Assembly (NCBI GenBank): GCA_023150835.1
Contig: JAKLKB010000089.1
Coordinates: 28,647-37,393, forward strand
Direction of reading: 5' to 3'
From: Myxococcota bacterium
GTDB taxonomy: Bacteria > Myxococcota_C > UBA6777
DNA: 8,747 nucleotides
Shown here piece by piece: positions 4,868 to 8,747 of the stretch. The first letter of the stretch is position 1; every line of letters starts with the position of its first letter. The translations under genes and the position numbers were made by a program. Under the pieces are notes generated by a model that saw only the letters and a list, made by a program, of their open reading frames with translations, had not been told where the DNA came from and did no database searches.

Positions 4868-5440
4868 CTACGGTCTTTTTTTGCAAGGGATCATTCGGCA
4901 TTGCGTTTCGCAGACCGCGCCTTGCGCGATACAATGCGGCTTACATACCACGTTATGCACGATGCAATGAGGCTTGCACACCGCTCCTTGTACGATGCAA
5001 TGGCTTTTGCACACAGCGTTTTGGATCTCGCAGTGGGGTTTGCAGATCAGTTGACCGGGGATGCAATGGAGTTGTTGACACTTTTTGATACAGCCTCGGC
5101 GGATCTTCTTCGAAAGTGCGATCGGACCAAGCGCAGCGATACAAGCCGCTACACAACCCGGTTTCGAGACGGTTTTACAGATTTGGTTCCCCCGCTTACA
5201 GATCTTCCGACACACCCGCGTCCCGCCGCTGCACACTTTTTTGCACACCTGTTGGCCACCGCTGCACACTCGATTGCAAACGCGACTCCCTCCGCTACAC
5301 ACGTTTCGGCACACCTGCTGCCCTGCCCGACAAACCTTTCGGCATTCCTTACACATCTTCGGAAATGGACCCGCCTCTGCCACCCCACCCCAAAACAACC
5401 ACGCACAAACCAACGCTCCTGCACTCCACCACTTTTTCAT
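4868..5440 (-). CDS. Secreted Cys-rich protein built of 11-residue CxxxC repeats
   Basis: ATG 5440 is chosen because GAAGGAG lies six bases upstream and a Sec signal peptide follows at once: MKKWW, a hydrophobic core to about 19, and AEA/G cleavage after residue 23. An upstream in-frame start at 5506 would bury it. The mature 167 residues hold 28 Cys. Block one repeats CxxVCxGGxxV with Cys at 33, 44, 55, 66, 77, 88 and at 37, 48, 59, 70, 81. A middle segment (89-126) has irregular Cys and a hydrophobic stretch. Block two repeats CKPHCIxxxxV with Cys at 133, 144, 155, 166, 177 and at 137, 148, 159, 170, 181. The spacing i, i+4, i+11 puts Cys on one face of a helix; disulfide ladders or metal binding are both possible. 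It resembles the CxxxC habit of Csp copper-storage proteins only loosely. I recognise no family. It is divergent from the PLD-CBM20 gene. Confidence 0.85.
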   Translation of the reverse strand: MKKWWSAGALVCAWLFWGGVAEAGPFPKMCKECRKVCRAGQQVCRNVCSGGSRVCNRVCSGGQQVCKKVCSGGTRVCRKICKRGNQICKTVSKPGCVAACIAALGPIALSKKIRRGCIKKCQQLHCIPGQLICKPHCEIQNAVCKSHCIVQGAVCKPHCIVHNVVCKPHCIAQGAVCETQCRMIPCKKRP

Positions 5441-5481
5441 CGCCCGCTCCTTCAAAAATGAAATAGATCGACCCGCTCGCC

Positions 5482-5495
5482 CGGAAGCGCTCCCG
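5482..5495. promoter_or_regulatory. Imperfect 14-bp palindrome upstream of the Cys-rich gene
   Basis: CGGAAGCGCTCCCG is palindromic at 12 of 14 positions around AGCGCT and lies about 42 bases upstream of ATG 5440. It could be an operator in this 231-bp divergent gap, but dyads this short are common by chance. No good promoter for the Cys-rich gene was found. Confidence 0.2.
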
Positions 5496-5584
5496 AACGA
5501 CCGCAACCATGCTACGTTGCTCTCATGGATCGCTTGTCAGACGCCCCTTGCCGATGGTTATTCACCTCCCGCCACAAAGCACCC

Positions 5585-5671: not shown

Positions 5672-7426
5672 ATGCCCGATAGAATCAACCACCGCCCCAA
5701 CCTCCCACCCATCACCCAGCCCTCCACAAGCCACACCTCTCCTACAAACAACACCTCTCCTACAAACAACACCTCTCCCACAAGCCACACCTCTCCCACA
5801 AACAACACCACTCCCACAGGCGGCATCACCGCCGAGATGCAACGCACTCTCGGACTTGCACAAGCCAACCACACCTCCCCTGTCCTCAAAACATGGTTTG
5901 CCCCGTACGAAGACACCCGTAAGCCCGAACTTGCCCTTCTTGACGAAGTGATCGCCGCCCGAAAAGCCGATCCCCGCACCTTTCAAGAAGGCCAAAACCC
6001 CTACAAGATCAACTACGCCGTCTACAACATCTCCAGCCAAGAGATCCTCGAAAAACTCGCCGAAGCCAACCGCGCTGGCGTCGATGTCCAAGTCCTAATC
6101 GAAGAGGACCAACTCGACCCCAAAAAAACATGGAACGACGGCGATGACTACTTGATCCGCAACGGCTTTGAATTCGCCCCCGATCACAAACAGCTCACCC
6201 CCGAAGAACGCCACACCGCCGACCTCATCGGCATCAAAAACTCCACCCTCATGCACCTCAAAACCCGCATCTTCGAGTACCCCGACCCCCAAACAGGCGA
6301 TCTCAAACAAACCGTCCTCACGGGCTCGATGAACCCGGGCGAAAGCGCCGTCCACAACGACGAAAACCTCATGCAGATCAACGATCCCCGCGTCGCTCGC
6401 CGCTACATCGAGATGTACGAAGCCGTCCGCGACGGCAAAGAGATCAAAAACGAATTTGACCCCCAATCCCCGATCAACGTGATGTTCACAGGCGCACCCG
6501 TCAAAGACGGCCAGTCCGTCACACGCCAGATCTTCAACATGATCGACCAAGAAAAAGAAGCCATCTTCCTCAGCGTCTTCACCCTGCGCAACCTCACCAC
6601 CGACTCCGACCGCCAAAATCTCGTCGACAAACTCAAAGCCGCCCACGATCGCGGTGTCCCCGTCGTCGTGATCACCGACAAAAAACAATCCGACGGCGTC
6701 GACGCCCAAGGCAACCGCACTTTCAGCGACGACCAGACCGAAGACCTCCTCCAAAAAGCAGGCATCCCCACCTACGAAGCCCTCAACCCTTCGGGGCCTT
6801 TCAATGCCATGCACGCCAAAAGCGCCATCTTCGGCCTCACCGACATGAAGGTGATCACCGACACAGGAAACTGGACCAAAGCCGCACTCAGTGGCCGAGG
6901 CTCCCGCTACGCCCAAAACGAAGAATCCTATCTCTTCGTCGACTCTGGCAAACTCGACAACAACCAAACAGGGATGCGCTACCTCGGAAATTTCTTGAAT
7001 CTCTTGCGCGCTTATGCCCCCCAAAATCCCGACCAACCCGCAGCCGAAGAACTCATCAACAAACTCTCCAGCCATCCCGCATGGCCCCGTGTCAACGTCG
7101 ACTTCTCCGTCATGGCGCACACCTTCATGGGCCAAGATGTCTATATCACAGGCAACCATCCCGCCGTCGGCAACTGGACCCAAGACGGTCCCGGCCTCAA
7201 ACTCAATACCAGCCCGGGACGTTATCCTTTTTGGGAATCAGGCGGGGCCTTGGAACTGCCCTTCGGTGCGCAGTTTGAGTACAAGATCGTCAAGCGCGAA
7301 CCCAACGGCTCCCTCCAATGGGAAGCCGGACCCAACGCCTTCTTGATCGTCGATCCCACCGATATCCGCTCCGGCCAAGGCCTCGGCAACACCCTTCTGC
7401 GTTCCGACGACTTCACACCCCCATGA
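5672..7426 (+). CDS. Phospholipase D-like protein (two HKD motifs) fused to C-terminal CBM20
   Basis: The start is fixed: GAGGA lies five bases upstream of ATG 5672 and an in-frame TGA occurs 21 bases before it. There is no signal peptide. The order of the 584 residues is: Thr/Ser/Pro/Asn linker with TSPTNN repeats (18-51); PLD-like domain one, with H195-x-K197 then GSMN (218-221) and NDEN (229-232); PLD-like domain two, with H381-x-K383 then TGNW (398-401) and NEE (416-418); and a carbohydrate-binding module of family 20 (about 474-562). The CBM20 keeps GQDVYITGN, GNW (W501), YPFW (W521), FEYK and LQWEAGPN (W550), the three Trp positions expected for starch sites. The HKD aspartate is Glu or Gly here, as in several nuclease-like PLDs. 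Likely role: phosphodiesterase targeted to alpha-glucan (glycogen or starch); the substrate is unproven. TGA overlaps a possible downstream ATG by four bases. Confidence 0.9.
   Translation: MPDRINHRPNLPPITQPSTSHTSPTNNTSPTNNTSPTSHTSPTNNTTPTGGITAEMQRTLGLAQANHTSPVLKTWFAPYEDTRKPELALLDEVIAARKADPRTFQEGQNPYKINYAVYNISSQEILEKLAEANRAGVDVQVLIEEDQLDPKKTWNDGDDYLIRNGFEFAPDHKQLTPEERHTADLIGIKNSTLMHLKTRIFEYPDPQTGDLKQTVLTGSMNPGESAVHNDENLMQINDPRVARRYIEMYEAVRDGKEIKNEFDPQSPINVMFTGAPVKDGQSVTRQIFNMIDQEKEAIFLSVFTLRNLTTDSDRQNLVDKLKAAHDRGVPVVVITDKKQSDGVDAQGNRTFSDDQTEDLLQKAGIPTYEALNPSGPFNAMHAKSAIFGLTDMKVITDTGNWTKAALSGRGSRYAQNEESYLFVDSGKLDNNQTGMRYLGNFLNLLRAYAPQNPDQPAAEELINKLSSHPAWPRVNVDFSVMAHTFMGQDVYITGNHPAVGNWTQDGPGLKLNTSPGRYPFWESGGALELPFGAQFEYKIVKREPNGSLQWEAGPNAFLIVDPTDIRSGQGLGNTLLRSDDFTPP
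5735..5824 (+). repeat. Five 18-bp units coding the TSPTNN linker
   Basis: Units start at 5735, 5753, 5771, 5789 and 5807 and encode TSPTNN, TSPTNN, TSPTSH, TSPTNN and a decayed TTPTGG. The array forms a flexible Thr/Pro/Asn linker at the N-terminus of the PLD-CBM20 protein, and its length is a multiple of three. Confidence 0.88.
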
Positions 7427-7500
7427 TGCGACCTTCCAACCGTCCGCAATACCCTTCTGCGTTCCGACGACTTCACACCCCCATGATGCGACCTTCCAAC
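7381..7500 (+). repeat. 60-bp tandem duplication across the PLD/EEP gene junction
   Basis: 7381-7440 and 7441-7500 match at 57 of 60 positions; the last 50 bases are identical and the three differences lie in the first ten. The unit spans the last codons and TGA of the PLD-CBM20 gene plus the ATGATG start of the next gene. Because 60 is a multiple of three, both ATGATG copies (7423 and 7483) are in the same frame. The sharp identity suggests a recent event. Confidence 0.95.
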
Positions 7501-8747
7501 ACGCCTTTTGTACCGAGACGACCGCTCAACACGCCCTTTTTATTCGGCTTCATCGCGCTGCTTTTGTTCTGTTGGGTGGCGCTTCTCGCCTGCGACACCC
7601 TCCCCGCCCAAGAATCCCTCACCGAATCCACCCACGAATCCGCCTCGGATGCCTCGACCGAATCCGCCTCCACCGAACTCTCTGTTGATCGTCCCTCCGA
7701 GGCTTCACCGACAGAAACCACACCTGATCCGTTTCCGCCCGAAGACACGCCCGAAACCATACAAGACTCCTCCAACGAAACCACCGAATCCTCCAACGAG
7801 ATCGCCACCGAAACCACCGAAAAGATCATCCCTGAAACCACGCCCACAGAGGAGACCGCCAACGATATGCCCGATCAACCCACCGGACCCCAACGCATCC
7901 AATGGGCCAGTCTCCAATGGCCCCCCGTCGTTACTGTCTACGCACAACAAACCAGCCGCCCGATCTACGGCCAATTTTACGCACAAGGCTACACCGACCA
8001 ACAAAAAGGCCAACCTCTCCCTCGCGCTTCTGTCGAGATCGGATACGGTCCCTTGGACTCCGACCCCCGCAACCAACCCTCCACATGGCGATGGTCCACC
8101 CAAACCACCTTCCACAAAAGTACAGGACTCCAAGACAACAACCACGAATACAAGGCCACGCTCACCATCCCCCAAGCGGGCCACTACCACTACACCTTCC
8201 GCTATCGGCTTGAAGATGGCCCTTGGTTCTACGGAGATCGGGCTGATTACGGTCGCCTTGGCAGTCAAGACGGCTTCTCTCCTAAAGACATGGGCGTGAT
8301 CGCTGTGGTCCAATCGGGCGCTCGCTTTCGCATGGCCTCTTTCAACCTGCACTGCCTCGTCGAACAGCCCGAAAAACGCCTCCAAGCCATCGCCGACGCC
8401 ATCGCCACCGAGCAGATCGATTTCCTCTCGCTCCAAGAAGTCTGCCGCCCCCAAGCTTCCGCCATCCCCGACTCCGCCGCTCGCCTCGCCACTCTTCTCC
8501 AACAAAAAGGACTCCCCTACACCTCTTTCTTTTCACAAACCCACGTCGGCCAACACGATGGCGCTTCTTTTGACGAAGGCATCGGCTTTTTGAGCCGCTA
8601 CCCCGTCATTGAAACCCAAGCTCTCCCCATCCCCCCCAACCACACTCCCCCCGCCGGCGCTTGTCCGCGCAAAGCCGCTTGGGGACGCCTCGCCACCCCT
8701 GTGGGGATCTTGTCGCTGCGCTCGACTCACCTTGCCTTTCGTTCTGC
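7483..8747 (+). CDS. Endonuclease/exonuclease/phosphatase-fold lipoprotein, 3' end outside window
   Basis: The frame is open from the ATGATG at 7483 to the window edge (421 codons visible). An in-frame start at 7423 overlaps the upstream TGA as ATGA and would add 20 residues; I prefer 7483 because the signal peptide is then more normal. Neither start has a clear Shine-Dalgarno, so coupling to the PLD gene is likely. A hydrophobic segment (19-36) ends in lipobox LLAC with Cys37. A Ser/Thr/Glu/Pro linker follows (39-135), then a probable beta-sandwich domain (about 139-256; IYGQFYAQGYTD, TWRWSTQTTF, HYHYTFRYR). The EEP domain starts near 281 with SFNLH (N288), LQEV (E319), GIGFLSRYP (366-374) and STHL (H416), matching the metal-binding and catalytic motifs of DNase I-like enzymes. 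The remaining C-terminal motifs lie outside. It is probably an outer-surface or periplasmic nuclease or phosphodiesterase. Confidence 0.85.
   Translation, partial: MMRPSNTPFVPRRPLNTPFLFGFIALLLFCWVALLACDTLPAQESLTESTHESASDASTESASTELSVDRPSEASPTETTPDPFPPEDTPETIQDSSNETTESSNEIATETTEKIIPETTPTEETANDMPDQPTGPQRIQWASLQWPPVVTVYAQQTSRPIYGQFYAQGYTDQQKGQPLPRASVEIGYGPLDSDPRNQPSTWRWSTQTTFHKSTGLQDNNHEYKATLTIPQAGHYHYTFRYRLEDGPWFYGDRADYGRLGSQDGFSPKDMGVIAVVQSGARFRMASFNLHCLVEQPEKRLQAIADAIATEQIDFLSLQEVCRPQASAIPDSAARLATLLQQKGLPYTSFFSQTHVGQHDGASFDEGIGFLSRYPVIETQALPIPPNHTPPAGACPRKAAWGRLATPVGILSLRSTHLAFRS

Follow-up and report, generated by a model that had tools for sequence, protein, structure and literature searches.

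The window, by which we mean the whole 8,747-nucleotide stretch of DNA analysed here, contains a gene whose product joins a PLD-superfamily core to a CBM20 starch/glycogen-binding domain without a signal peptide, and it raises the question of whether such a protein is a cytosolic enzyme docked on storage glycogen or acts with its neighbour at the cell envelope. The following features are discussed, the PLD-CBM20 protein and its orthologs being referred to as family A.

5672..7426, + strand: PLD-CBM20 protein (family A), 584 aa plus stop
5672..5869, + strand: disordered S/T/N/P-rich N-terminus (residues 1-66), no signal peptide (pLDDT, hydropathy, N-terminal comparison)
5870..7039, + strand: two-lobed PLD-superfamily catalytic region (residues about 67-456; PLDc_2 in two stretches, model superposes on PLD3)
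6254..6334, + strand: catalytic motif 1, H195-x-K197 ... N221, HKD Asp absent
6812..6871, + strand: catalytic motif 2, H381-x-K383 ... N400, HKD Asp absent
7091..7345, + strand: CBM20 starch/glycogen-binding domain (residues 474-558) with W502, W521, K538 and W550 (Pfam E=6.9e-19; PDB sequence matches)
7423..8745, + strand: EEP1, lipoprotein with an Endonuclease/Exonuclease/phosphatase domain (PF03372, E=4.6e-7; alternative start 7483)

Domains and motifs of the PLD-CBM20 protein

The gene is a complete single open frame with an ATG start, preceded by six open codons and an in-frame stop 21 bases 5' of the start, and a renewed reading of the frame agrees with a preliminary description of this DNA, which had given 584 residues and a start set by that stop. 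Comparison of genomes G000 and G001 gave a dN/dS of about 0.10 for A, the value for its paralog B being 0.06, and the gene is under purifying selection. The pLDDT of the model is below 50 over residues 1-67, and the highest 15-residue mean hydropathy within the first 80 residues is 0.19, in keeping with the lack of a signal peptide noted earlier. Cysteine is absent from the window protein and from two near orthologs. Elsewhere in the window, a small protein of 212 aa on the minus strand (4868-5506) has an apparent signal peptide, 29 cysteines and a short repeated C-x-x-x-C pattern, and gives no match in Pfam.

The PLD domain is well supported, with a Pfam PLDc_2 match in two stretches (E=1.2e-25, 90.3 bits against a curated cut-off of 27) and a two-lobed fold in the AlphaFold model (seven input sequences, pLDDT 74.6, pTM 0.78), for which CBM20 domains are also among the Foldseek matches. 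Residues 67-454 of the model superpose on PLD3 (8v06_C) with a Z of 24.8 and an rmsd of 3.4 over 305 residues, and both lobes are therefore predicted to stand in the PLD arrangement; other fold matches are the bacterial PLD 7e0m (Z 24.4) and PPK1 (Z 22.9). The two motifs, previously taken to be of HKD type, are in fact of the form HxK...N, namely H195-L-K197 ... G218-S219-M-N221 and H381-A-K383 ... G399-N400, so that each His-x-Lys is followed by an Asn as in the PLD superfamily while the Asp of HxKx4D is replaced by E202 and G388. No A ortholog has Asp at these positions: motif 1 has E/Q/T/S/R/A/N/K there, and motif 2 has G. The His, Lys and Asn of both motifs never vary in the orthologs covering the sites. 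TDP1 also has HKN motifs (PMC12280126), and since it works with them the loss of the Asp need not abolish the predicted catalysis. The likeness to TDP1, a member of the PLD superfamily with His-Lys-Asn motifs without Asp, is one of motifs, and TDP1 differs in being a eukaryotic DNA-repair enzyme with no CBM20.

The CBM_20 profile matches residues 474-558 with 67.9 bits against a curated cut-off of 23.3 (E=6.9e-19), within the region 474-562 on which the preliminary description had made its reading depend, and in a PDB sequence search this part matched solved starch-binding domains of glucoamylase and CGTase (best E=1.2e-11). The three expected tryptophans, W502, W521 and W550, are confirmed together with Lys538, all at conserved CBM20 positions, and W502, K538 and W550 make up the Trp/Lys/Trp binding site. 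In STBD1, mutation of a conserved CBM20 Trp abolishes amylose binding (PMC4076837). The binding residues are kept in most orthologs, partly lost in G945 and lost in G883, G951 and G950, and on these three losses the putative glucan binding is judged not to be indispensable to the family.

Other CBM20 proteins were seen in the same and related genomes. The window genome encodes another leaderless one (L038:1450-2505, - strand, CBM_20 E=8e-18), whose neighbours seem to include genes with lipoyl-type domains (L073), and relatives of that genome (L036 and L039) have a GH57 glycoside hydrolase with a C-terminal CBM20, the L036 gene adjoining one for an ABC-transporter ATPase.

Distribution, paralog and known relatives

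Family A was found in all five genomes of the small phylum to which the window belongs and in 11 of the 195 genomes of a second phylum, probably Myxococcota, in a survey of other genomes such as the preliminary description had proposed. Full-length members were found neither among 400 genomes from a third phylum nor elsewhere in the 386-genome sample. Full-length relatives were likewise missing from phages, plasmids and IMG/VR contigs, and a phage, plasmid or viral source was set aside on this ground. In the tree a long branch leads to the A sequences, which group together as a single clade (support 100/100), and the architecture is not a one-off but has a single-clade origin. In the relatives a single open frame spans both halves (the G933 assembly is split by a frameshift), whereas separate genes in all relatives had been named as the outcome fatal to the fusion.

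The window genome also encodes a paralog, B (L002:829-2853, + strand, 675 aa), about 32% identical to A, in which an extra N-terminal domain of predicted strands precedes the PLD and CBM20 (E=3.3e-22) parts. Both lobes of B have a canonical HKD (HTKFAIFD and HHKFAVFD) and by sequence profile match MitoPLD/Zucchini (E=8e-11) and Nuc (3e-7). The N-terminal domain gave no match in Pfam or PDB sequence searches, and a CBM21-like reading, made by eye only, was dropped. B was found only in G000, G001 and G004, where in the last it is adjacent to A, and most genomes with A do not have it.

PLD3, PLD4 and the bacterial two-domain PLD 7e0m share with A two PLD lobes per chain and the same overall fold (Z about 24), but the identity is about 15%, they have no CBM20, and the HKD motifs are intact in B and not in A. 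By sequence profile Nuc, NucT, MitoPLD and DISARM DrmC are closest to B, NucT and DrmC falling below cut-off, and all differ in having a single lobe, no glucan-binding domain and no EEP partner. The equivalog scores are 34.9 bits against 211 for nuclease NucT (NCBIfam NF010490) and 28.4 bits against 133 for DISARM DrmC, and membership in DISARM was rejected since DrmC matches only weakly, under its cut-off. Laforin, STBD1 and GPCPD1 resemble the window protein in that a CBM20 is fused to a non-amylolytic protein, and laforin and GPCPD1 are phosphate-acting enzymes; their catalytic domains are, however, a dual-specificity phosphatase and a GDPD and not a PLD. All three are eukaryotic, while PLD-CBM20 is bacterial with a C-terminal CBM20, the domain being N-terminal in laforin and GPCPD1. 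The PLD superfamily and CBM20 are each well known, but a limited literature search found no account of a PLD-CBM20 fusion that has HKN motifs and is paired with an EEP gene, and the combination appears undescribed; the preliminary description likewise knew of no PLD-CBM20 system, and an empty search of this kind is weak evidence of absence.

The EEP1 partner and the gene neighbourhood

The EEP1 start overlaps the PLD-CBM20 stop (ATGA), and the EEP1 gene is cut by the contig end. Its product has a DNase-I-like (EEP) phosphodiesterase domain and a hydrophobic LLLFCWVALLAC lipobox. The A-EEP1 pair occurs in seven genomes from two phyla (G000, G001, G004, G931, G930, G933 and G937), the two genes overlapping or lying a few bases apart, or with paralog B in between in G004; EEP1 lies directly 3' of A in G001 and, in the second phylum, in G931, G930, G933 and G937, where the EEP1 homologs also share the N-terminal domain. 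In G002, G003, G883, G951, G950, G944 and G945 it does not adjoin A, and in G887 the contig ends. The order in G004 is an acyltransferase-like (Condensation) gene, A, B, EEP1, EEP2 and a membrane sulfatase-family protein, and G002 has the same order minus B and EEP1, keeping EEP2 and the sulfatase-family protein; these two genomes belong to one genus, and their common gene order counts as one observation. PADLOC-DB gave no match to the tested neighbours, EEP1 and the sulfatase.

Positions 7381-7500 of the window hold a 60-bp tandem duplication (57/60 identical) that spans the PLD-CBM20 end and the EEP1 start, and it looks recent because the translated EEP1 start of G001 has no such repeat. Directly downstream of the PLD-CBM20 relatives in G951 and G950, EEP1 is replaced by genes without a Pfam match (L132:7633-8864 and L134:5221-6428, - strand), the first encoding a leaderless protein with a P/T-rich start. 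A second EEP-PLD gene pair was seen at L138:1123-5885 (+ strand), where an EEP-domain gene with an HTH domain is followed by one for a 1086-aa Fic + PLD protein.

Cell location and proposed role

Most A members are leaderless, the window protein included, but the orthologs of G944 and G945, both among the genomes with no adjacent EEP1, begin with lipoprotein signal peptides (MRRLTLSALALFGLLLLPAC and MGRLWRRCSPAATVALILVPFLMAAC). The exported EEP1 partner, the cysteine-free sequence and these two lipoprotein members together favour an envelope location for PLD-CBM20. We put a probability of about 45% on the tentative reading that it is a predicted phosphodiesterase located at the envelope or exported, anchored on alpha-glucan and with EEP1 as its partner, in preference to a cytosolic glycogen-docked enzyme. 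By analogy with the PLD superfamily, one active-site His would attack the phosphodiester to give a phosphohistidine intermediate, the other would serve as acid/base, and Lys and Asn would hold the phosphate. The CBM20 would anchor the enzyme on an alpha-glucan, which may be glycogen, starch or an alpha-glucan surface polymer, and the operon structure and lipoprotein members suggest that PLD-CBM20 and EEP1 may cooperate on a phosphodiester polymer, either at the envelope or outside the cell. The putative substrate is most likely nucleic acid, as the nearest folds are the PLD3/PLD4 5' exonucleases and Nuc/NucT-type nucleases, and next a phospholipid or other envelope phosphodiester.

How a leaderless enzyme would leave the cell was approached through the N-termini. 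The starts of leaderless orthologs resemble each other (MPDRI in the window, and MPSRI, MPRI, MPRRV and MARRI), but no other protein in the five genomes from the phylum of the window has the MPxRIN start, and over roughly 1 Mb from two related genomes an x-R-[IV] start was not enriched on leaderless P/S/T-rich N-termini (R[IV] in 8 cases; the control dipeptides R[LF] in 8 and R[AG] in 15). A shared N-terminal export tag was discarded on this result, and the search for shared starts yielded no export route for the leaderless members. The leaderless exported effector of the preliminary description is better supported than glycogen docking by the EEP1 lipoprotein partner and the two lipoprotein orthologs. 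We consider quite unlikely the more specific proposal that PLD-CBM20 and EEP1 form an alpha-glucan-anchored extracellular phosphodiesterase pair in which the conserved MPxRI/V start and the disordered S/T/P-rich N-terminus are the export signal, the leaderless enzyme leaving the cells of Myxococcota-like bacteria by an as yet unrecognised route. One of the genomes with PLD-CBM20 encodes an unrelated leaderless protein of 385 aa starting MPRVTRRPAP (L167:4847-6004, + strand), whose Cys/His pattern resembles, by eye, NlpC/P60 peptidases.

A cytosolic enzyme docked on storage glycogen by its CBM20, whose target would be a phosphodiester at the granule or close to it in analogy to laforin and GPCPD1, is possible but somewhat doubtful. 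All five genomes from the phylum of the window have GlgA, and the window genome has in addition a GH57 branching enzyme and glycogen phosphorylase, which makes an intracellular alpha-glucan likely; most members have no signal peptide, the CBM20 site is intact in the window protein, and the leaderless CBM20 protein of L038 is encoded in the same genome. The docking proposed at the outset is to this extent possible, but the linkage to glycogen genes suggested as a check was not seen in the flanks read, the conserved neighbour EEP1 is an exported lipoprotein, and some relatives are themselves lipoproteins or have lost the glucan-binding residues.

Two further alternatives concern the PLD core itself. 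It might be a weak or dead scaffold that has lost both HKD Asp and binds glucan or another polymer, the enzyme being B or EEP1, as might be thought from the missing Asp in every A ortholog, the long branch of the clade and the two HKD motifs kept by B; we hold this to be unlikely, since both His, Lys and Asn are invariant across two phyla as a TDP1-like HKN set (PMC12280126), and most A-bearing genomes have no B. The top Foldseek match is PPK1 (1xdo, E=6.3e-12), and there is a weak PP_kinase_C match (E=0.0025), which could point to a polyphosphate kinase-like phosphotransferase on an alpha-glucan scaffold. This is very improbable, as PP_kinase_C reaches 17.7 bits against a cut-off of 25.8, only the PLD fold is in common, Pfam finds no PPK N or middle domain, and VIA-align ranks PLD3 above PPK1.

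Family A represents a bacterial clade of predicted phosphate-acting enzymes with an alpha-glucan-binding domain, conserved across two phyla, with a PLD core that does not have the textbook HKD aspartate. It raises the questions of whether PLDs of HKN type other than TDP1 have enzymatic activity, and of what purpose a starch-binding domain has on a phosphodiesterase. That its partner is an exported EEP lipoprotein speaks against assigning all leaderless CBM20 enzymes to glycogen.
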